From NCBI GenBank assembly GCA_012515395.1, contig JAAYYL010000097.1:1-33452 (forward strand): a DNA stretch of 33,452 nucleotides. Direction: 5' to 3'. This document shows positions 12,580-27,285 of this stretch, piece after piece. The position numbers and the translations under genes are program-made. The number at the start of each line of letters is the position of its first letter. The stretch's first letter is position 1. The notes under the pieces are model-generated. The model did no database searches. It saw nothing but the letters and a program-made list of their open reading frames with translations, and had not been told where the DNA came from. Origin of the DNA: Bacteroidales bacterium (GTDB lineage: Bacteria > Bacteroidota > Bacteroidia > Bacteroidales > UBA932).

Positions 12580-15483
12580 ATGAATAAACTGATTGCCTGT
12601 TTTGTTTCCTGTTGTTTTCTTCTGGGAACGTATTTCCCGGCAACCGGACAGTATTACAAAACCGGTGAAGACCCTGCCCGGTTGAAATGGAATCAGTTGC
12701 AAGCCGGTCCCTATAAGATCATCTTTCCCCGGGGTACGGACTCCCTGGCTTTTCGTTACGCCTGGTTACTGGAACAGGTCACCCCTCATGTTATGAGATC
12801 CCTGGAAGCTGATACCCCTGCCATCCCCGTGGTTTTGCATCCTTACAATGTAAATAGCAACGGCATGGTTGCCTGGACACCAAAAAGAATGGAACTGATA
12901 ACCACACCCCCTTCTTCAGGAACCATGCATAACTGGGAAAAGCAACTGGCCGTCCATGAAACCAGGCACGTGGCACAAATGCAACGTGCCGGTGAACACT
13001 TTTTCCGTGGTTTCAGGTGGTTTTTCGGACAGCAATCGGAAGGCGTGTCTGTTGGTTTGTATTTTCCCCGGTGGCTTCTGGAAGGAGACGCGGTAATAAC
13101 CGAAACGCTGTTGTCTTCCGCCGGACGCGGCAGGGAAGCCTCTTTCCTGATGCCATACAAAGCCTATTTTGCAGAAAACAAGTTTTTTTCTTACGATAAA
13201 TGGCGTTACGGATCCTTTCGTCATTTTATTCCGGATCATTACGCACTGGGATACATGAAATTATCCGTTGCCACATTGAATGCGGCTGAAGACGCGCTCA
13301 GCCGTATATTTACGGATATTACAAAATACCCTTACTGGCCATTTATTTACGGCACAACCTTCAAAAAAAATTACGGTTCGTATGCCGTAAAACTATGGGG
13401 TCCGGCAGCAGATCACTATAAACAGATCTGGCAACAGGAAGAAATGCTTAAACAACCGGCGGATCCGGGCGTACAGCTCAACCGCAGTGTGAAGGATTAT
13501 GTCCGTTACGCCTCCCCGGCTCTTGTTATGCATGAAGACGGGGCCGGGTACCTTTATGCCGTAAAATCATCTTTAGCAAAAACATCCCGAATCATTCGCT
13601 TTGATAAAAATGTTGAGCAAAAAGAACACCCCTTGTTTCCGGCAGGGAACATCAATTCATCTTTGAACGCAAACGGTCCTTACCTCTATTGGAGTGAAAC
13701 GGTCAGCGGATACCGCTGGGCTCACGAGAATTACTCGGTGATCATGAAATACAATGCGGTCACCGGACGCAAACAACAACTGACATCCAAAACACGTTAT
13801 TTCAATCCGGCTCCCGGCCCCGATAACAAACTGCTGGCTGCGGCGTTTTATAAGCCGCAGGGAGGTTCGCAATTGCACCTGTTGAACGCCATGACCGGCG
13901 AGCTTTTGGAAATTGTTGAAATACCCGACGGCGGGCAAATTACGGAAATTGCGTGGAGCAGCATAGATACCCTTATTGTGATGATAACGGGAGAAAACGG
14001 TACCGGGATATACAAAATGGACCGGAACTCCGGCCTTAAGACCGTGATCCTGCCTCCCTCTTTTCATTCCCTGGGAGGTTTGCAATATGCTTCCGGAAAG
14101 ATATTCTTTAAAAGCGACAAGGTCAACAATACCGACAATATTTTCAGCATGAATGAAGACGGGTCCGGAATACTTCAGCTTACGCGGGCCCGCTTTGGCG
14201 CTTTTGATCCTTTGCCTTACGAAACGCCGTCAGGAACATTTCTGTATTATACCAATTACACAACCCGGGGATATCAGCTTACCCGCTTGCATCCGGACAG
14301 TCTTCTAAACGCGCCGGCTTGTTTTACACGGGAACATCCGGATTCTTTTATCCTTTCGGAAAAATCCGGTTTCAACATAGATACGCTAAGGGTTCCGGAA
14401 ACCATTTCTTACCCCGTAAAAAAATACAGCAAACTCCTGCATGCCGTCAGAATTCATTCATGGATGCCTTTTTATTTCAATTACGACAAACTGGAAAATT
14501 TCACCTTTAAGGAATACTACCGGTCCGTGGCACCGGGTGCTACCATCATGTCACAAAACACCCTGGGAACACTTGTCACCACCATGGGATATTCTTATCA
14601 CCAGGGATTTCATGCCGGACACCTGAAAGTTAATTATTCAGGATGGTTGCCTGTATTTTCATTCCAGGCAGACATTAACGACAGGTACCATACCCACACC
14701 TTTACCATACCTGAAAACGGACAATACAAATGGGCAAGTGACACCTTGATGACCCCCGCTCTGGAGTTTTCCCTGCGTTCCTACATTCCTTTTACTTTCA
14801 ACAGCCACGGTTGGCAACGGGGACTTGTGCCGCAAATAAGGTACAGTATATCCAACGATACATACAGACATCCCCTGAAAGACAAAACCGTCGTAAACCA
14901 AATGTTCCAGGCAGGATTACAGTATTATCAAATGATGAACCGTGCACCCCGGGATATTTTTCCCCGCTTTGGATTCGGATTGAATGTCCAGACTTCATTT
15001 GCTCCGCAAGCTGCGGGACTTTTCACCAATATCCTGTATATGCAGGCCTACGGGTACCTTCCCGGATTCCTGAGGAACCAGGCTCTCAAATGGAACCTGG
15101 GATGGCAGGAACAACAGGATAAGGATCGGTTCTTCTACCTGGGAACATTCATGGCCGCTCCCCGTGGTCTTGATCAACGCATCCTGGCTCCCGGAACGTT
15201 TTCCGCCTCTGTGGATTATGCCATTCCGGTGTGGATTGGAGATCCATCCATCCCCGATGTGATATATATCAAACGGCTTCAGGTTATACCTTTTGCAGAT
15301 TACATGCAAACCCGCCAAAGTGACGGCGTCAAAAACGAATACTGGTCTTTAGGAACGGATCTTCTTATGGATTTTCATTTGTTCAGAATAGGGGTCATGC
15401 TTTCTGCCGGGGTTCGTTATGCCTATACGTGTGAGCACAAACACCGCTTTGAATTTTTGTTTTCATTTCCCGCTTTTTATTAA
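12580..15483 (+). CDS. Exported HExxH metallopeptidase-like / TolB-like propeller / outer-membrane barrel protein
   Basis: The 967-residue protein opens with a type I signal peptide (likely cleavage after TYFPATG). Residues about 30-290 resemble a gluzincin zinc peptidase: H126-E-T-R-H130 forms HExxH, and WLLEGDAVITE supplies candidate third-ligand glutamates E168 and E175, the usual EGxA arrangement. Residues about 300-600 contain repeated strand-turn units such as NIFSMNEDGSGILQLT, typical of TolB/WD40-like propellers. From about 640 onward, alternating aromatic strands lead to an ending FEFLFSFPAFY with a terminal aromatic residue, as in outer-membrane barrels. Proteins of this layout are usually labelled TolB-like in Bacteroidetes. 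Substrate and activity are unknown. The pnuC start lies five bases downstream, so the two are probably co-transcribed. Confidence 0.75.
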   Translation: MNKLIACFVSCCFLLGTYFPATGQYYKTGEDPARLKWNQLQAGPYKIIFPRGTDSLAFRYAWLLEQVTPHVMRSLEADTPAIPVVLHPYNVNSNGMVAWTPKRMELITTPPSSGTMHNWEKQLAVHETRHVAQMQRAGEHFFRGFRWFFGQQSEGVSVGLYFPRWLLEGDAVITETLLSSAGRGREASFLMPYKAYFAENKFFSYDKWRYGSFRHFIPDHYALGYMKLSVATLNAAEDALSRIFTDITKYPYWPFIYGTTFKKNYGSYAVKLWGPAADHYKQIWQQEEMLKQPADPGVQLNRSVKDYVRYASPALVMHEDGAGYLYAVKSSLAKTSRIIRFDKNVEQKEHPLFPAGNINSSLNANGPYLYWSETVSGYRWAHENYSVIMKYNAVTGRKQQLTSKTRYFNPAPGPDNKLLAAAFYKPQGGSQLHLLNAMTGELLEIVEIPDGGQITEIAWSSIDTLIVMITGENGTGIYKMDRNSGLKTVILPPSFHSLGGLQYASGKIFFKSDKVNNTDNIFSMNEDGSGILQLTRARFGAFDPLPYETPSGTFLYYTNYTTRGYQLTRLHPDSLLNAPACFTREHPDSFILSEKSGFNIDTLRVPETISYPVKKYSKLLHAVRIHSWMPFYFNYDKLENFTFKEYYRSVAPGATIMSQNTLGTLVTTMGYSYHQGFHAGHLKVNYSGWLPVFSFQADINDRYHTHTFTIPENGQYKWASDTLMTPALEFSLRSYIPFTFNSHGWQRGLVPQIRYSISNDTYRHPLKDKTVVNQMFQAGLQYYQMMNRAPRDIFPRFGFGLNVQTSFAPQAAGLFTNILYMQAYGYLPGFLRNQALKWNLGWQEQQDKDRFFYLGTFMAAPRGLDQRILAPGTFSASVDYAIPVWIGDPSIPDVIYIKRLQVIPFADYMQTRQSDGVKNEYWSLGTDLLMDFHLFRIGVMLSAGVRYAYTCEHKHRFEFLFSFPAFY

Positions 15484-15488
15484 AGTTC

Positions 15489-16184
15489 ATGAAATTACTG
15501 CGCTTTTTTTCTCCTTACGAATGGTTCTTGCTGTCATCCATCATAATTCTCAATTTCGTCGTCTTTTTTATAACCGGCCAATGGGATGCTTTGTCAGCCA
15601 TTGCAACAATTTCCGGAGTTTTATGTGTGGTTCTTGTAGCTAAGGGACACATTTCCAATTACCTTTTCGGATTGATCCAGGTGAGTTTATACACATATCT
15701 TTCCTGGGGAGTGGGATATTGGGGAGAAGTAGCCCTCAACGGGTTGTACTACGTGCCCATGCAATTTATCGGATTTTTCATGTGGAGAAAACGGATAAGG
15801 GAAGGGAGCAAGACCCGCGTCAAAGCGAAAAACCTGACCAGGCAACAACGCATATGGCTGTTTGTTGCATGTGTAATACTCATCACTGCAGGCGGACTGT
15901 TATTGAAATATTACAATGACCCCGCTCCTTTCCTGGATTCCACCACTACATTTTTGTCAATTGTGGCCATGTACCTGATGGTTAAAACATACTCGGAACA
16001 ATGGTATTTGTGGATCACTGTCAATGTTGCTACTATCATCATGTGGGGAATGGCTTTTATCCGCGATGGCCAGGAGGCCGGTCATCTGATTATTGCATCC
16101 ATGTGGTGCGTTTACCTGCTTAATTCCATTCACGGTCTGATTATCTGGAAAAAGGCTGCCAAAACGTCTTCGCTGACAAATTGA
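15489..16184 (+). CDS. pnuC: PnuC-family nicotinamide riboside transporter
   Basis: PnuC proteins are inner-membrane facilitators that bring in nicotinamide riboside for NAD synthesis; close relatives carry thiamine (PnuT) or riboflavin. The 231-residue product has about seven hydrophobic spans. It carries the family motif WxxWxxVN as WYLWITVN, and the N-terminal ISNYLFGLIQVSLYTYLSW and QFIGFFMWRKR segments typical of PnuC. The starting ATG is five bases after the upstream stop. No TPP or FMN riboswitch lies in front of it and no thiamine kinase is nearby, so nicotinamide riboside is the default guess for the substrate. Confidence 0.88.
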   Translation: MKLLRFFSPYEWFLLSSIIILNFVVFFITGQWDALSAIATISGVLCVVLVAKGHISNYLFGLIQVSLYTYLSWGVGYWGEVALNGLYYVPMQFIGFFMWRKRIREGSKTRVKAKNLTRQQRIWLFVACVILITAGGLLLKYYNDPAPFLDSTTTFLSIVAMYLMVKTYSEQWYLWITVNVATIIMWGMAFIRDGQEAGHLIIASMWCVYLLNSIHGLIIWKKAAKTSSLTN

Positions 16185-18210: not shown

Positions 18211-18234
18211 TATTCAACATATTACAAACCTTTG

Positions 18235-18271
18235 GAACACGGGAAGTTATGCTTCCCGTGTTCTTTTTTTT
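18235..18271 (+). terminator. Intrinsic terminator after groEL
   Basis: A perfect 12-base-pair stem, GAACACGGGAAG (18235-18246) with CTTCCCGTGTTC (18252-18263), encloses the five-base loop TTATG and is followed by eight T residues (18264-18271). It begins 25 bases after the groEL stop. It is the only clear intrinsic terminator I found in the window. Confidence 0.93.
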
Positions 18272-18273
18272 CG

Positions 18274-18281
18274 TATCTTCG
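18274..18281 (+). promoter_or_regulatory. -7-like box four bases before the GH95-like gene
   Basis: TATCTTCG matches TAnnTTTG at five of six fixed positions and is followed by TTTT and the ATG at 18286. The region where a -33 box would sit falls inside the groEL terminator stem and T tract. Confidence 0.4.
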
Positions 18282-18285
18282 TTTT

Positions 18286-20715
18286 ATGAAGAATATACGC
18301 CTTTTACTCTGGCTTACTCTTCTACTGGCGGGTTGCAAGACCCCAACTGCGGAAACGCCCCGGGTCATGGCTTTAGTCTTTGACAAGCCCGCAATCTTAT
18401 GGGAAGAACGCCTGCCGTTGGGTAACGGAAGGCTGGGGGCTATGCCGGACGGGGGTATAGCGGCTGAAAACATTATTCTCAACGAGATATCACTTTGGTC
18501 GGGATCTCCGGCAAACGATCTGAGACAGGGAGCATACCAGGTACTGCCGGCAATCCGGGAGTTGCTCTATAAAGAACAAACTCCCAGGGCACAGGAGATC
18601 ATGTACCGTTTTTTCACTTCCCGCACAAGGGGTTCTGAAGGAAGTGGCGGTGCCGGCAATACTTTTGGTAGTTACCAGGTTCTTGGTTCGCTGTCACTGG
18701 ATTTTATCTACGACGCATCTGTCTCTTCCGTTTCCGATTATTCCAGAATGCTTGATATTGCCACTGCCACTTCCTTTACGTCATTTAACCTGGAAGGTGT
18801 TACTTATACCCGAGAATGTTTTACGTCCCTGGCAGATGACGTGATCATTTTGCGTCTTACAGCTTCACAGCCCGGATCTCTTTCGTTCAAAGCCACGTTA
18901 AAGCGCCCTGAACGAGCCCATGTGCGCGTAGCTGACAGCTGTCTGATCATGGAAGGATCGCTGGTTTCCGGACAGGATACAATTCCGGGAATGAGGTATT
19001 ATACCCGTATGGAAATCATCCCGGAAGGACGCGGCCGTTTGAGCTATACTCAGGACTCCATAATCCTGCAGCAGGCAACACAGGCAAACATAATCATTTC
19101 CGCCGCAACCGATTTCATGGTGGATTCCATGTCCCTCAGTCCGGATTCATCATACATTTTTAGGGCAGATTCCCTTGCACGCAGGGCCGCTGTCAAAGAA
19201 TATCCCGGACTGAAAAAGGATCATATTGATACCTACCAGCATTTCTTTCATCGTGTTAATCTGCATTTACCGGATTCATCCGATTTGTATTTTCAAACGG
19301 GAAGGTACTTGCTCATTGCTTCCACCCGCCCCGGATCGCTTCCGCCGAATTTACAGGGATTGTGGACTCCTCACATTCAGACACCCTGGAACGGTGCTTA
19401 CGATCTGAATATGCATGTGCAAATGAATTTCTGGCCTGCTTTAAGCACCAATTTAAGCGAGTTTCAAGGGCCGCTTGCGGATTTTGCCGCATGGCTTTCA
19501 GAAAAGGGAAAACAAACGGCTGCCGGATACTACAATGCTCCCGGATGGACGGTGCATGCCCGCACCAATCTATGGGGCTATACCGCACCGGGACACAACA
19601 CCGCCTGGAGTGCTTACAATACGGGGGGAGGCTGGTTGTGCAATCCTTTGTGGGATTACTATCTTTACACGTTGGACGTTGAATACCTGAAATCGGTATA
19701 TCCCGTTTTGAAAGAAGCTTCACGTTTTTACCTTGCCTCTCTTATGGAAGACCCCGTATACGGATGGCTTGTTCCCGTTCCTTCCATGTCTTACGGCAAC
19801 ACGTATTATATCATGGATCAGGAGGCACCCGGGCAATTGTCCGTTCCTTTGTTCCTTTGCATGGGATCTACGGCAGACATACAAATGATAAGAGAACTGT
19901 TCTCCAATGTCATCGCTGCCAATCGTATTTTGATGAACACGGAAGATTTTCCATTTATCTACAAACTGGAAGAAGCGCTGGACAGGCTGCCTCCTTACAC
20001 GGTAAACGAAATGGGCTGTCTGAGACGTTGGTTATACGATTATACGGAAGAAGACCTGAGAATGCGAAATGTAACGCATCTTTACGCCTTGTATCCCGGT
20101 CATCAGATCACCCATAAAGATTCCGTACTGTTGAAGGCTTGTGCCCAAACATTGGAAAGACGGGGTTACGGCGGATCCGGGTGGCAAATGGCATGGAACC
20201 TGAATCTCCGTGCACGACTGGAAGATGGGGAGGGTGCTTATAAGGTCTTGACTGAAATGATGTCTCCGGCTCTGGAAGAAAGTATTTCCCCTTACCTGAC
20301 AGGGGATCTTTCGGCTATAACACTTCTGGGATCAGGGATGTACCCTAACGGGTTTTCTTCCAATCCGCCATTCCAGATAGACGGAAATCTTGGAGGATGT
20401 GCCGGTATTGCCGAGATGTTGCTGCAAAGTCACCGGGGGTACATTCACGTATTGCCTGCCTTACCTGAGGCGTGGAAGCAAAAAGGATCTTTCAGGGGCC
20501 TTTGTGCCCGGGGAGGAGCAGAGGTGTCCTGTAAGTGGGAAAACGGGGAAATACTTGAAATTCAGATTAAGGCAACTTCCGACAATACGTTCAGATTAAG
20601 AATTCCGGAAAATTTTGACAGGATTAAAAAGCAGTATATTGATATCCCGCTAAAAAAAGGTGAAATAATAACCTATCATACAAAAAGTAAAATCAACCGT
20701 AAAAAAACATTATGA
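18286..20715 (+). CDS. GH95-like glycoside hydrolase lipoprotein with altered catalytic residues
   Basis: This encodes 809 residues with a lipoprotein signal (hydrophobic [12 protein letters not shown]). Family GH95 enzymes hydrolyse alpha-1,2-L-fucosides or alpha-L-galactosides by inversion. The fold is well supported: N-terminal [24 protein letters not shown], central [33 protein letters not shown] and C-terminal [20 protein letters not shown]. Key positions differ. The usual N-x-N before QMN is N375-M-H377. The usual SPE(N/H) segment carrying the general-acid glutamate reads S502-Y-G504-N. The DGN aspartate D699 is kept. It may be inactive or act on another substrate. It overlaps nfo by four bases. 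ATG 18286 is preferred over an upstream in-frame start because it opens the signal peptide directly. Confidence 0.85.
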
Positions 20716-24479: not shown

Positions 24480-25856
24480 ATGAAGCGACTTTTTATACTG
24501 TTTTCTCTTGTATTCCTTTTAACGTCCTGCGAATGGTTCAGGCAACCGGAGGAAGCGCCACCGGTCACTCAAAAAGTGAACACATATATGCTGGAGCTGA
24601 TGAAAGAAGTTTATCTGTGGGAAACGCATATCCTGGACACATTTGACATTCGGTATGAATTTGACGAATTTGAGTTTTTTGAAAAATTGTGTTACCGGAC
24701 AGAAGACCGTTGGTCATTCCTGACCGATGATGTTCAGTCTCTTCTGGAAGGTGGTGAAGGCGTGGAAACCACGTTTGGGTATTCCCTGGCATTCGGCACA
24801 TTTTCCAACACGGGCAATTATTTTGCCGTTATTCAATACGTATATCCACAAACACCGGCCACTGAAGCCGGGTTGAAAAGAGGCTCCATTATTATTGAAA
24901 TGAACGGAAATGCGATTACCCGGGACAATTATACGGATCTTTATTATTCCTCTTCACTGAGCCTGACACTGGGAGAATTACAGGATGGCGTTATACACCA
25001 AACCGGTACGGTTAATCTTACTGCCCGAAAACAAAATCTGAATCCCGTCATTGCTTCAACCGTTATTGATAACGGCTCCCAAAAAACAGGATATATTTGT
25101 TATACGGACTTTTTCGGAAATTCCGAGACCCTTTTTTACCCGGTTTTCCAGGAATTCAAAGCTGCCGGGATCACAGACCTGGTTCTGGATCTGCGTTACA
25201 ACCTGGGCGGATACCTGAGTGTTGCTGCAGCCCTGGTAGGTGTAGTATGTCCGTCGGAATTCCTCACGGGCAACACGGTCCTGATCTCAAAAACATGGAA
25301 CGATCTCTACCAGGATTATTGGGCAGACAACAACCGGGATGATATGTTGCATGAGTATTTCCCAAAATTTTCAGATGTGCCTGTGAACCTGAACTTATCC
25401 CGCATCTATATTCTGACAGGATACAACACCGCAAGTGCTTCCGAATTGACCATCTGCGGTCTGGACCCATATATGGAAGTTATTAAAATCGGAGACGTGA
25501 CCCGGGGAAAATATACCGCAGCCATGATCTTTAATCCGGAAGAAGATCCGGAAATTGAGAATTGGGGAACCCAGGCTATCGTATACAAGTACGCCAATGC
25601 AGAAGGTGTCACGGATTTTAAAAACGGTTTCTCTCCCGATTACCCGGTAGAAGATGTGCTTATGGGAGAAGTATATTCCCTGGGAGATCCGCGTGAAAAT
25701 CTTTTTAAAACCGCACTTTCGCTTATTGGAACAAACGCTCCGTCTTCCGTATCCCTGCCTCCCACCCGGAATATTTCCGGGGTGAACTTTGACCGCTCTT
25801 TTTCATCTAAAATGAATGGACTGAACCATCATTTGATTGATACAAAAAAACCGTAA
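24480..25856 (+). CDS. S41-family (C-terminal processing type) serine protease lipoprotein
   Basis: The 458-residue protein has a lipoprotein signal (KRLFILFSLVFLLTSC). An N-terminal helical segment (LELMKEVYLWETH) typical of Bacteroidetes S41 lipoproteins is followed by a PDZ-like region (about 85-180, with YVYPQTPATEAGLKRGSIIIEMNG). The S41 catalytic domain contains DLVLDLRYNLGGYLSVA, NTASASELT (residues 316-323, nucleophile serine) and RGKYT with K344 as the likely general base. It should act on proteins in the periplasm or at the cell surface. The substrate is unknown. I use ATG 24480; a GTG at 24477 is also in frame. An S37 protease gene begins seven bases after its stop. Confidence 0.9.
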   Translation: MKRLFILFSLVFLLTSCEWFRQPEEAPPVTQKVNTYMLELMKEVYLWETHILDTFDIRYEFDEFEFFEKLCYRTEDRWSFLTDDVQSLLEGGEGVETTFGYSLAFGTFSNTGNYFAVIQYVYPQTPATEAGLKRGSIIIEMNGNAITRDNYTDLYYSSSLSLTLGELQDGVIHQTGTVNLTARKQNLNPVIASTVIDNGSQKTGYICYTDFFGNSETLFYPVFQEFKAAGITDLVLDLRYNLGGYLSVAAALVGVVCPSEFLTGNTVLISKTWNDLYQDYWADNNRDDMLHEYFPKFSDVPVNLNLSRIYILTGYNTASASELTICGLDPYMEVIKIGDVTRGKYTAAMIFNPEEDPEIENWGTQAIVYKYANAEGVTDFKNGFSPDYPVEDVLMGEVYSLGDPRENLFKTALSLIGTNAPSSVSLPPTRNISGVNFDRSFSSKMNGLNHHLIDTKKP

Positions 25857-25863
25857 CAACTCT

Positions 25864-27285
25864 ATGAAACCTTACAGATTCTTTCTTTTCCTTTCTGCCG
25901 TTCTGGTATTCACGGCATTTTCACAGCCTTCTTTTTCACAAACATTCCAACCGGGTCGTACTCCGCTGGAGATACAACTTTCCTCTTTACCGCAGGTTAC
26001 TGAAGTATTAAGGCTGGAGAGCAGCACATTTGATGAAAAGTACAGGATCCGGGTCCGGCAAATGGTCAATCACGAAGATATCATTTACGGTTTTTTCGAG
26101 CAACGCGTCTTTGTAATGCATGCAGGAACTGACCGTCCTACCGTTCTGGTTACCGAAGGATACGGAGCCGACTATGCGGCAAATCCCCGGTATCGTGAAG
26201 AATTGTCACGTTTGCTGGATGCCAATCTTATAGTGGTAGAACACCGTTATTTTTCCGAATCCGTTCCTTCTCCCAGGTACTGGGAATTTTTAAACGGCCC
26301 TCAGGCGATGACTGATCTGCATAAAATCCGCGAGATTTTTGCCGCCGTATATCCCGGGAAATGGATCGCTACCGGAATCAGTAAAGGCGGTCAGACCGCC
26401 TTGATGTACAGGACGTTATATCCTGAAGACGTAGATATTACCGTATCTTATGTAGCCCCGTTGTGCCAGGGTGTAGAAGACGGCAGGCACGAACCTTTTA
26501 TAGCCCGTAAAGCAGGGACCCCTGAAACAAGAGAAAAAGTCTTGAACTTTCAGAAAGAAGTCCTTATACGCAGGGACAGCCTAATGCCTCTTTTTACAAG
26601 TTATTGTGATTCGGCCGAATTAAGTTTTACAAGACCCGTGAATGAGATCTTTGATTATTGCGTTTTGGAATATTCTTTTGCCTTTTGGCAATGGGGTACG
26701 GATCCTGACAAAATCCCGGCTTCAGACGCTTCCGACAAACTTGTTTTTGCACATTTTATGCAGGTGGCATCTCCCGATTATTTTGTCAGGGATTCTCCCA
26801 CCATGCCTTTTTTTGTACAGGCTGCCAAAGAATTGGGGTATTACGGTTACGACACAAAACCGTTCCGTTTCAAAGTAGAACGAACCCGTTTTGTTCCCGG
26901 AAAACAAAAAAAACGTAAAAACGATTCCGTTGCTGTAAATACTCCCGCTGAAGGAGAATGGGTTACCCGTAAATACCCCGCTATGGAGCTGAAAAATGCA
27001 CGGGGATATCTAAAACAACTTTTTTTACCGGACACGTACAAACCCCGTTTCAAAAAAACATTGTACCGTGAACAAAGTAAATTTGTAAAAGAAACGGATG
27101 CCCGCATGGTTTTCATATACGGAGAATGGGATCCATGGACAGCAGCAGCCGTTCCCAATCCCGACAAACCCAATATTTTGTACTACGTGGAACCCGGGGG
27201 AAGCCACCGCGCCCGGATTTCAACACTGCCTGAATCCATGAGAAACGAATTGTTACAACAATTGCAAGTCTGGTTGAACGAATAA
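25864..27285 (+). CDS. S37-family (PS-10) exported serine peptidase
   Basis: The product has 473 residues with a type I signal peptide (hydrophobic FFLFLSAVLVFTAF, probable cleavage near SFSQ). It matches the S37 family, whose founding member is a secreted Streptomyces tripeptidyl aminopeptidase with an alpha/beta-hydrolase fold. Catalytic candidates are S173 in GISKGG, D423 in YGEWDPWTA and H448 in GGSHRARI. LVTEGYGADY and VEHRYFSES correspond to the family's N-terminal strands. It should trim peptides in the periplasm or outside the cell. ATG 25864 is preferred because it starts the signal peptide; an in-frame start at 25837 would overlap the S41 gene. It probably shares a transcript with the S41 gene and the DUF2156 gene. 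Confidence 0.9.
   Translation: MKPYRFFLFLSAVLVFTAFSQPSFSQTFQPGRTPLEIQLSSLPQVTEVLRLESSTFDEKYRIRVRQMVNHEDIIYGFFEQRVFVMHAGTDRPTVLVTEGYGADYAANPRYREELSRLLDANLIVVEHRYFSESVPSPRYWEFLNGPQAMTDLHKIREIFAAVYPGKWIATGISKGGQTALMYRTLYPEDVDITVSYVAPLCQGVEDGRHEPFIARKAGTPETREKVLNFQKEVLIRRDSLMPLFTSYCDSAELSFTRPVNEIFDYCVLEYSFAFWQWGTDPDKIPASDASDKLVFAHFMQVASPDYFVRDSPTMPFFVQAAKELGYYGYDTKPFRFKVERTRFVPGKQKKRKNDSVAVNTPAEGEWVTRKYPAMELKNARGYLKQLFLPDTYKPRFKKTLYREQSKFVKETDARMVFIYGEWDPWTAAAVPNPDKPNILYYVEPGGSHRARISTLPESMRNELLQQLQVWLNE

Follow-up and report, generated by a model that had tools for sequence, protein, structure and literature searches.

TolB, of the Tol-Pal system, is a soluble periplasmic protein with neither a peptidase nor a barrel. 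PlpD joins a patatin lipase, in the place where we propose a metallopeptidase, to an outer-membrane barrel and has no propeller. In 2014, Heinz and Lithgow defined the WD40-Omp85 subfamily, which they called 'reminiscent of' a BamA-BamB fusion (PMC4104836, main text). The same text reports that PlpD, a patatin-Omp85 protein, brings its enzyme to the cell surface (PMC4104836). The word 'peptidase' is absent from that main text by a word-start search, and the text consulted from a paper of 2025 that deals with BAM in the Bacteroidota (PMC12611786) makes no mention of a propeller, a peptidase or TolB. In the open-licence literature, judged by titles and the starts of abstracts, we found no study of a peptidase-propeller-barrel protein, which agrees with an earlier statement that no established function is known.

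Here we analyse such a protein from a Bacteroidales bacterium (assembly GCA_012515395.1, contig JAAYYL010000097.1). The window, meaning the whole stretch of DNA analysed, is 33,452 nt long. Our protein shares fold and sequence of its propeller with TolB, the placing of a TolB-like propeller before a barrel with the WD40-Omp85 subfamily, and the proposed fusion of an enzyme to an Omp85-like barrel with PlpD-type patatin-Omp85 proteins (PMC4104836, main text). The WD40-Omp85 account covers the propeller only, and the barrel described here failed the Omp85 sequence test.

Architecture and propeller

Positions 12580–15483 of the + strand translate as one frame of 967 aa with an ATG start and no internal stops. 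The protein starts with a hydrophobic stretch, followed by the motifs HETRH and EGDAVITE, a TolB-like propeller and, up to the final FPAFY, a C-terminal part rich in beta structure. The original prediction was of a single exported protein in which an HExxH peptidase-like domain precedes a propeller of the TolB type and a barrel of the outer membrane, and frame, motifs, profiles and conservation all agree with it. Residues 1–24 (12580–12651, + strand) were read by eye as a signal peptide region; Q24 at its end is kept in 49 of 50 aligned sequences. By itself the protein has no Pfam or NCBIfam match at E ≤1. A full-length structure model, built from an alignment of 11 sequences with relatives 53–83% identical, reached a mean pLDDT of 50.6 and was poor outside the propeller.

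The propeller (approximately residues 301–600; 13480–14379, + strand) was recognized both by a profile search of the PDB, in which TolB structures matched profile positions 401–546 (best E 9.4e-14), and by Foldseek on the model, which returned TolB (E 5.3e-10). Over these residues the means of ten-residue blocks were 51–90 pLDDT. Both routes support the TolB-like fold predicted earlier. Among 46 family members, the NCBIfam TolB model matched 24 and Pfam PD40 matched ten, both at E ≤0.1. These 46 (alignment A1) were taken from a 51-sequence alignment by leaving out L013 (truncated), L035, L037 and both L036 copies. It had been said that genes of this kind are normally called only TolB-like; this is so for the relatives, which appear to the models mainly as TolB-like or PD40, but not for the 967-aa protein, which matches no model.

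Distribution and gene neighbourhood

A protein search found a match in 49 of 60 genomes, the protein's own included. By profile search, 110 of 119 genomes of the family matched at E ≤1e-60, 86 of 149 genomes of the order matched with at least 500 bits (a hand count that includes the own genome), and 17 of 149 genomes of the class matched at E ≤1e-20. Of the family genomes with a completeness of 90% or more and contamination no higher than 5%, 71 of 72 had a match; the gene is near-universal in its bacterial family. When viral contigs were searched for relatives, 12 stretches matched and none of them encodes one.

A pnuC-like gene lies directly downstream (15489–16184, + strand; PF04973, E 2.6e-46). 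It stands directly downstream on the same strand in 11 of the 12 other genomes of the genus (L002–L012; L013 is cut at the contig end) and in the same position and orientation in seven of 21 loci from other genera of the family (L014, L015, L017, L021, L023, L027 and L031). At L025 it adjoins convergently, and it was not found in the flanks of approximately 1–3 kb at the remaining 13 loci from other genera. Outside the family, lists compared by eye held no genome with a match of at least 500 bits and a PF04973 match on one contig, and at 36 loci there the commonest neighbour group occurred in six. We rejected pnuC as a functional partner, its adjacency being confined to the genus and part of the family, and because no such pairing appeared on the lists from outside the family we read it as local gene order with no sign of function.

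Peptidase-like domain

Residues 25–299 (12652–13476, + strand) form a peptidase-like domain that hhalign relates to Peptidase_MA_2 (PF13485). On the same strand it holds HETRH (residues 126–130; 12955–12969) and EGDAVITE (residues 168–175; 13081–13104), assigned by conservation and by alignment with the HExxH and EG of PF13485 proteins, and a GRGR loop (residues 182–185; 13123–13134), assigned by conservation. HETRH is the sole HExxH of the protein. An HExxH alone is weak evidence and called for a conservation test, because one turns up in 2.9% of cases when the letters of the protein are shuffled 20,000 times.

The counts in the alignment of 51 sequences are 48 for each of H126, E127, H130 and E175, 49 for E168, 50 for each of R129 and D170, and 51 for each of G182, G184 and R185. 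We then counted 67 sequences, made up of these 51 and 16 homologues from the class-wide search; both counts take in the 967-aa protein and L013, a homologue cut at a contig end. The residues named in the original prediction are kept in 64–65 of the 67 (H126, E127, H130 and E175 each in 64, E168 in 65); nearby, R129 is kept in 65, G182 in 67, G184 in 66 and R185 in 66. Each of the three sequences that lack HExxH is a second copy, from a genome that also has an intact one. A chance HExxH is ruled out by this conservation, at 64 of 67 for H126, E127 and H130. The gap from H130 to EGDAVITE is 37 residues, which is also the commonest length (48 of 64 motif-bearing family sequences). The peptidase domain is more strongly conserved than the other parts, with 26 sites at 95% or more; the propeller has one such site and the barrel has 11.

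The domain aligned with the N-terminal part of Peptidase_MA_2 proteins (hhalign, 98.6%, E 5.7e-16) and with a full alignment of 18 such proteins, A4, described below (98.2%, E 3.9e-14). With both motif stretches masked, the comparison with the N-termini still gave 96.1% (E 3.2e-9). Controls consisting of one reversed and eight column-shuffled profiles gave 0.1–0.8%, and the barrel profile against the peptidase part gave 1.2%. In the alignment, PF13485 proteins have their HExxH opposite HExRH, and the E of the EG in EGLAEY opposite E168. H126 and H130 are accordingly placed as predicted zinc ligands, with E127 as predicted general base, and E168 is likely the third ligand because it aligns with the E of the EG motif. 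Between E168 and E175, which had been offered as alternatives, this alignment speaks for E168; E175 is also invariant in intact copies. The profile relation and the conserved predicted ligands together support the peptidase-like (gluzincin-like, HExxH...E) domain that had been proposed.

Among the 46 family members no PF13485 match was listed at E ≤0.1, and beyond the propeller families Pfam and NCBIfam models matched single members of the 46, including the HExxH families DUF2268 (E 0.0036) and flagellinolysin (E 0.0013). The peptidase-domain profile had no match among solved structures at E ≤10, and over residues 11–280 the full-length model is of low confidence, with ten-residue block means of 21–45 pLDDT.

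The conserved residues also bear on what the domain might cut. The family conserves more than the general signature, namely R129 of HExRH and the GRGR loop, neither of which was seen in the 18 A4 proteins, as would fit a metal-dependent hydrolase that uses a peptidase-like scaffold on some other envelope substrate, such as a glycan, a lipid or a cross-link. Against this stand the HExxH with its downstream EG, the profile homology to a peptidase family, and the two HExxH families among the single-member library matches, and we consider such a substrate very improbable. A peptidase remains our preferred reading of the domain.

Relatives in the Bacteroidota

A search for PF13485 in 61 genomes of the phylum matched 35, with no match in the protein's own genome, and the twenty best matches lay in frames of 1054–1279 aa. 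A4 comprises 18 of 20 hand-picked loci; L087 and L097 were left out for want of a suitable frame. Pfam scans of nine of the 18 found Peptidase_MA_2 in all nine (eight over the cut-off), PD40 in eight and Omp85 (PF01103) in three. Over the peptidase and propeller, A1 aligned with A4 at 99.9% (E 2.4e-35). These Peptidase_MA_2-PD40(-Omp85) proteins likewise have a peptidase, then a propeller, then a C-terminal barrel region. Their motifs differ, being mostly HELVH and EGLAEY with 27–29 residues between them, whereas the family of the 967-aa protein has HExRH and EGDA..ET..GRGR with 33–37 residues between them in 62 of 64 sequences (in the other two, EGDA was not found within 80 residues). The C-terminal regions of the two groups gave no significant alignment.

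In 148 genomes of the phylum, the peptidase profile matched 82 at E ≤0.01 and the barrel profile 29. Through these searches we came upon another family, whose frames are 933–1075 aa long, mostly with HELVHA and EGxAV..E[ST] and with a GRG-like loop. Seventeen of 20 hand-picked loci (leaving out L125, of another type, and L135 and L136, which belong to the family of the 967-aa protein) form alignment A8. These HELVHA/GRGN relatives are homologous to the 967-aa family over the full length, with 894 columns aligned, barrel included (100%, E 5.5e-74), and 99.3% for the barrels alone. Where A8 mostly has HELVHA and EGxAV..E[ST], the 967-aa family has HExRHxxQ and EGDAxxxET. In nine A8 proteins and L136, PD40 matched nine of ten at E ≤0.01 (seven over the cut-off; none in L136), and the Peptidase_MA_2 and Omp85 Pfam models matched none of the ten.

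Pfam shows peptidase-propeller(-Omp85) in relatives from the phylum, and WD40-Omp85 is in print. The 967-aa protein thus has an architecture that is already known but apparently uncharacterised, of which it is a divergent and unannotated variant. The expectation that the possible zinc-peptidase part is easily overlooked holds for this protein, which matches no model; it is less new than it seemed, as Pfam can see the same order in other Bacteroidota. Nearly all relatives retain the active-site letters, so the protein probably is a genuine envelope protease, as yet unstudied, with an architecture known in broad outline.

C-terminal barrel

The C-terminal region (residues 606–967; 14395–15480, + strand), read as a barrel from modelling and Foldseek, contains conserved HSWxP (626–630) and PRG (861–863) motifs. 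Residues 600–967, modelled alone from 11 sequences, gave a low-confidence model of 15 strands (pLDDT 58.7, pTM 0.55), where an Omp85 fold would have 16. Foldseek on this model returned 493 matches at E ≤10, 18 of them at E ≤0.001 (best E 1.7e-4), and the best 50 of the 493 were titled as proteins of the Omp85 superfamily or complexes containing them (TamA, BamA, FhaC, TOC, SAM). A second aligner, VIA, placed BamA first (Z 15.8) but tied with TonB receptors and porins. A large outer-membrane barrel, as predicted earlier, is well supported by these structure comparisons; because of the tie, its Omp85 type is only moderately supported.

The sequence comparisons with Omp85 were negative. PF01103 matched none of 46 barrel segments at E ≤1, and hhalign of the barrel with the C-termini of Pfam-recognised relatives gave 4.4% (E 0.009) and 7.6% (E 0.0046), neither significant, the latter with 0.5% for a reversed-profile control. 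The best alignment in the first comparison, itself not significant, pairs the PRG region with the RG region of those relatives. P861 is conserved in 53, R862 in 59 and G863 in 63 of 67 sequences, and five strands follow PRG in the low-confidence model. In Omp85 proteins, BamA likewise, five strands follow the (V/I)RG(F/Y) motif of loop L6. Since both the PF01103 and the hhalign tests failed, we term the barrel Omp85-like and do not file it as a member of the superfamily; with sequence tests negative, the term rests on a low-confidence model. In the comparison with BamA/Omp85 barrels proposed earlier, the low-confidence model thus drew Omp85 titles for the best 50 of 493 matches, but the link in sequence was not significant.

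The N-terminal domains of BamA and TamA lie in the periplasm. By analogy, because the barrel model matches Omp85 structures, the peptidase-like domain and propeller would face the periplasm too. PlpD leaves this side less than certain, as the enzyme of that protein is reported to end up at the cell surface (PMC4104836, main text). With this precedent and an Omp85-like C-terminal barrel, the same enzyme might sit on the cell surface, the barrel carrying peptidase and propeller outward as in PlpD, and digest external peptides. Approximately 575 residues of two folded domains would then need to cross, however, and neither the 46 members nor their barrel segments had a POTRA model among their listed matches. 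We regard a surface location as unlikely, and prefer the periplasmic one.

Second copies lacking the active site

Ten family genomes had two matches. Four of these were left out (G017, G473, G517 and G529), their matches being two pieces from different parts of the query, which leaves two full-length copies in six of 119 genomes (G026, G027, G033, G508, G540 and G543). In each of the six, one copy has HExRH and the other has lost it, and is still an open frame with propeller and barrel. The inactive copies group in twos, with one pair per genus in three genera. Built from propeller and barrel columns only, a tree supported the pairs at 100, 100 and 97 and needed three changes, as did an earlier tree with three inactive copies; a single clade of all six was rejected (AU p 3.9e-86, from a quick tree with long branches in play). 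The inactive second copies have three separate origins. In one genus the intact and inactive genes stand in tandem on the same strand (L036, L137). Outside the family, both G056 copies (L038, L049) keep HExRH; the two-copy genomes G076, G162 and G169 were left out of the copy comparison. These recurrent intact/inactive pairs were the least expected part of the finding.

We compared 79 intact copies, the 967-aa protein included, with the six inactive ones at sites conserved in at least 95% of intact copies. N94, W119, L123, H126, E127, H130, Q133, E168, E175, R183 and Y221 are kept in no more than two of the six, and R183 of GRGR is lost in all six. All six do keep W37, P101, G150, G169, G182, G184, R185, G211, S212 and G224. 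Of the 12 sites of this kind in propeller and barrel they keep 11, the exception being P883, which four of the six retain. Loss of HExxH was built into the comparison, as its lack defined the group; the other losses were not. Because N94, E168, E175, R183, Y221 and others went along with HExxH, the pattern points to a single active site formed by the co-lost residues.

Between the two species of each inactive pair, dN was 0.25–0.51 and dS 1.9–3.6 over residues 25–960, and 0.20–0.37 and 1.7–3.9 over the peptidase-like domain; with dS near saturation, only the direction of dN/dS is safe. These values suggest that the inactive copies are under purifying selection, peptidase-like domain included. 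For inactive and intact copies respectively, the comparison gave 63% and 80% in one genus and 67% and 88% in another, indicating faster divergence of the inactive copies, and 47% and 41% in the third. For the inactive and intact pair of one genus, barrel dS was not computable. The faster divergence, the near-saturated dS and the missing barrel dS count against reading the copies as a pseudoenzyme pair.

Since the inactive copies appear to be kept under selection, part of the protein's function may be non-catalytic. Taken further, the whole protein might serve mainly as an assembly or docking platform in outer-membrane biogenesis, like a BamB-BamA fusion, with the peptidase domain an accessory. 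The likening of WD40-Omp85 proteins to a BamA-BamB fusion (PMC4104836, main text) is in keeping with this, as are the propeller and barrel retained by all six inactive copies and their dN well below dS. But none of the genomes whose copies were extracted lacks a copy that retains the active site, and it is the peptidase domain, not the propeller or barrel, that is most conserved. We think a platform role quite improbable. A catalytic protein accompanied in some genera by a dead one, a possibility that we hold only tentatively, would make this a core outer-membrane metallopeptidase of Bacteroidia, in which some genera have an active and a dead copy (in tandem in one genus), the dead copy acting as regulator, scaffold or decoy receptor and having arisen at least three times.

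Discussion

On balance we lean, by a little, towards an exported outer-membrane zinc metallopeptidase whose gluzincin-like domain and propeller face the periplasm and whose Omp85-like barrel is the anchor. The protein would be exported and its C-terminal barrel set into the outer membrane, with the peptidase-like domain and propeller hanging on the periplasmic side. Zinc would be held by H126, H130 and E168, with E127 as general base, and N94, E175, R183 and Y221 would complete the active site. The propeller, suggested earlier to sort substrates, might hold or present polypeptides, or bind partners in the envelope, in the service of local cleavage or of quality control. The sequences show the order of the domains, their conservation, the kinship of the N-terminal domain with Peptidase_MA_2 and the joint loss of active-site residues in second copies, whereas zinc binding, peptidase activity, the periplasmic facing, the propeller's task and the substrate are what we infer in this scheme.

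A gene present in 71 of 72 good-quality genomes of its family has no Pfam or NCBIfam model in its own genome, and in its relatives little is seen beyond propeller models. These observations point to barrel-anchored zinc-peptidase-like proteins as a class that is widespread among Bacteroidota. The intact and inactive pairs provide a natural list of residues to mutate, and whether working proteases are carried on Omp85-like barrels, and on which side of the membrane, is now a directly testable question. If the reading of the pairs is true, active and dead copies would together constitute a protease system of the envelope in which one of the partners is a pseudoenzyme.

Genomic context of the predicted peptidase gene

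The stop of the gene encoding the predicted zinc-peptidase, propeller and barrel protein is separated by 5 bases from the start of pnuC (15489-16184), which matches PF04973. The genus keeps this gene order, as do 7 of the 21 loci from other genera of the family; among the genomes compared outside the family, it was not kept. The genome also has a second PF04973 match, on another contig (C95).

Further along the window lie a glycoside hydrolase family 95 gene (18232-20715; E = 2.5e-125) and a peptidase S37 (PS-10) gene (25837-27285; E = 1.1e-44). The hydrolase gene adjoins groES- and groEL-like genes that precede it, both named by eye.

Outside the family, common neighbours occurred at 5-6 of 36 loci: a putative pseudouridine synthase, PanB-like enzyme and pyridoxamine-oxidase-like protein, names that we assigned by eye from the sequence letters. 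The loci with such neighbours are L159, L163, L167, L170, L172, L173, and L176.

Second copies lacking the HExxH motif

We take PF00149 to be a metallophosphoesterase family. An Omp85 subfamily carrying this domain is termed 'metalloproteases' in a passage of Heinz and Lithgow 2014 (PMC4104836).

Six of the 119 family genomes sampled hold two copies of the peptidase gene, and in all six the second copy lacks HExxH and keeps the propeller and barrel. The intact and HExxH-less copies stand in tandem at L036 and at L137; in the other genomes they occupy paired loci (L035 and L152; L138 and L139; L037 and L151; L141 and L140). The HExxH-less second copies have three separate origins.
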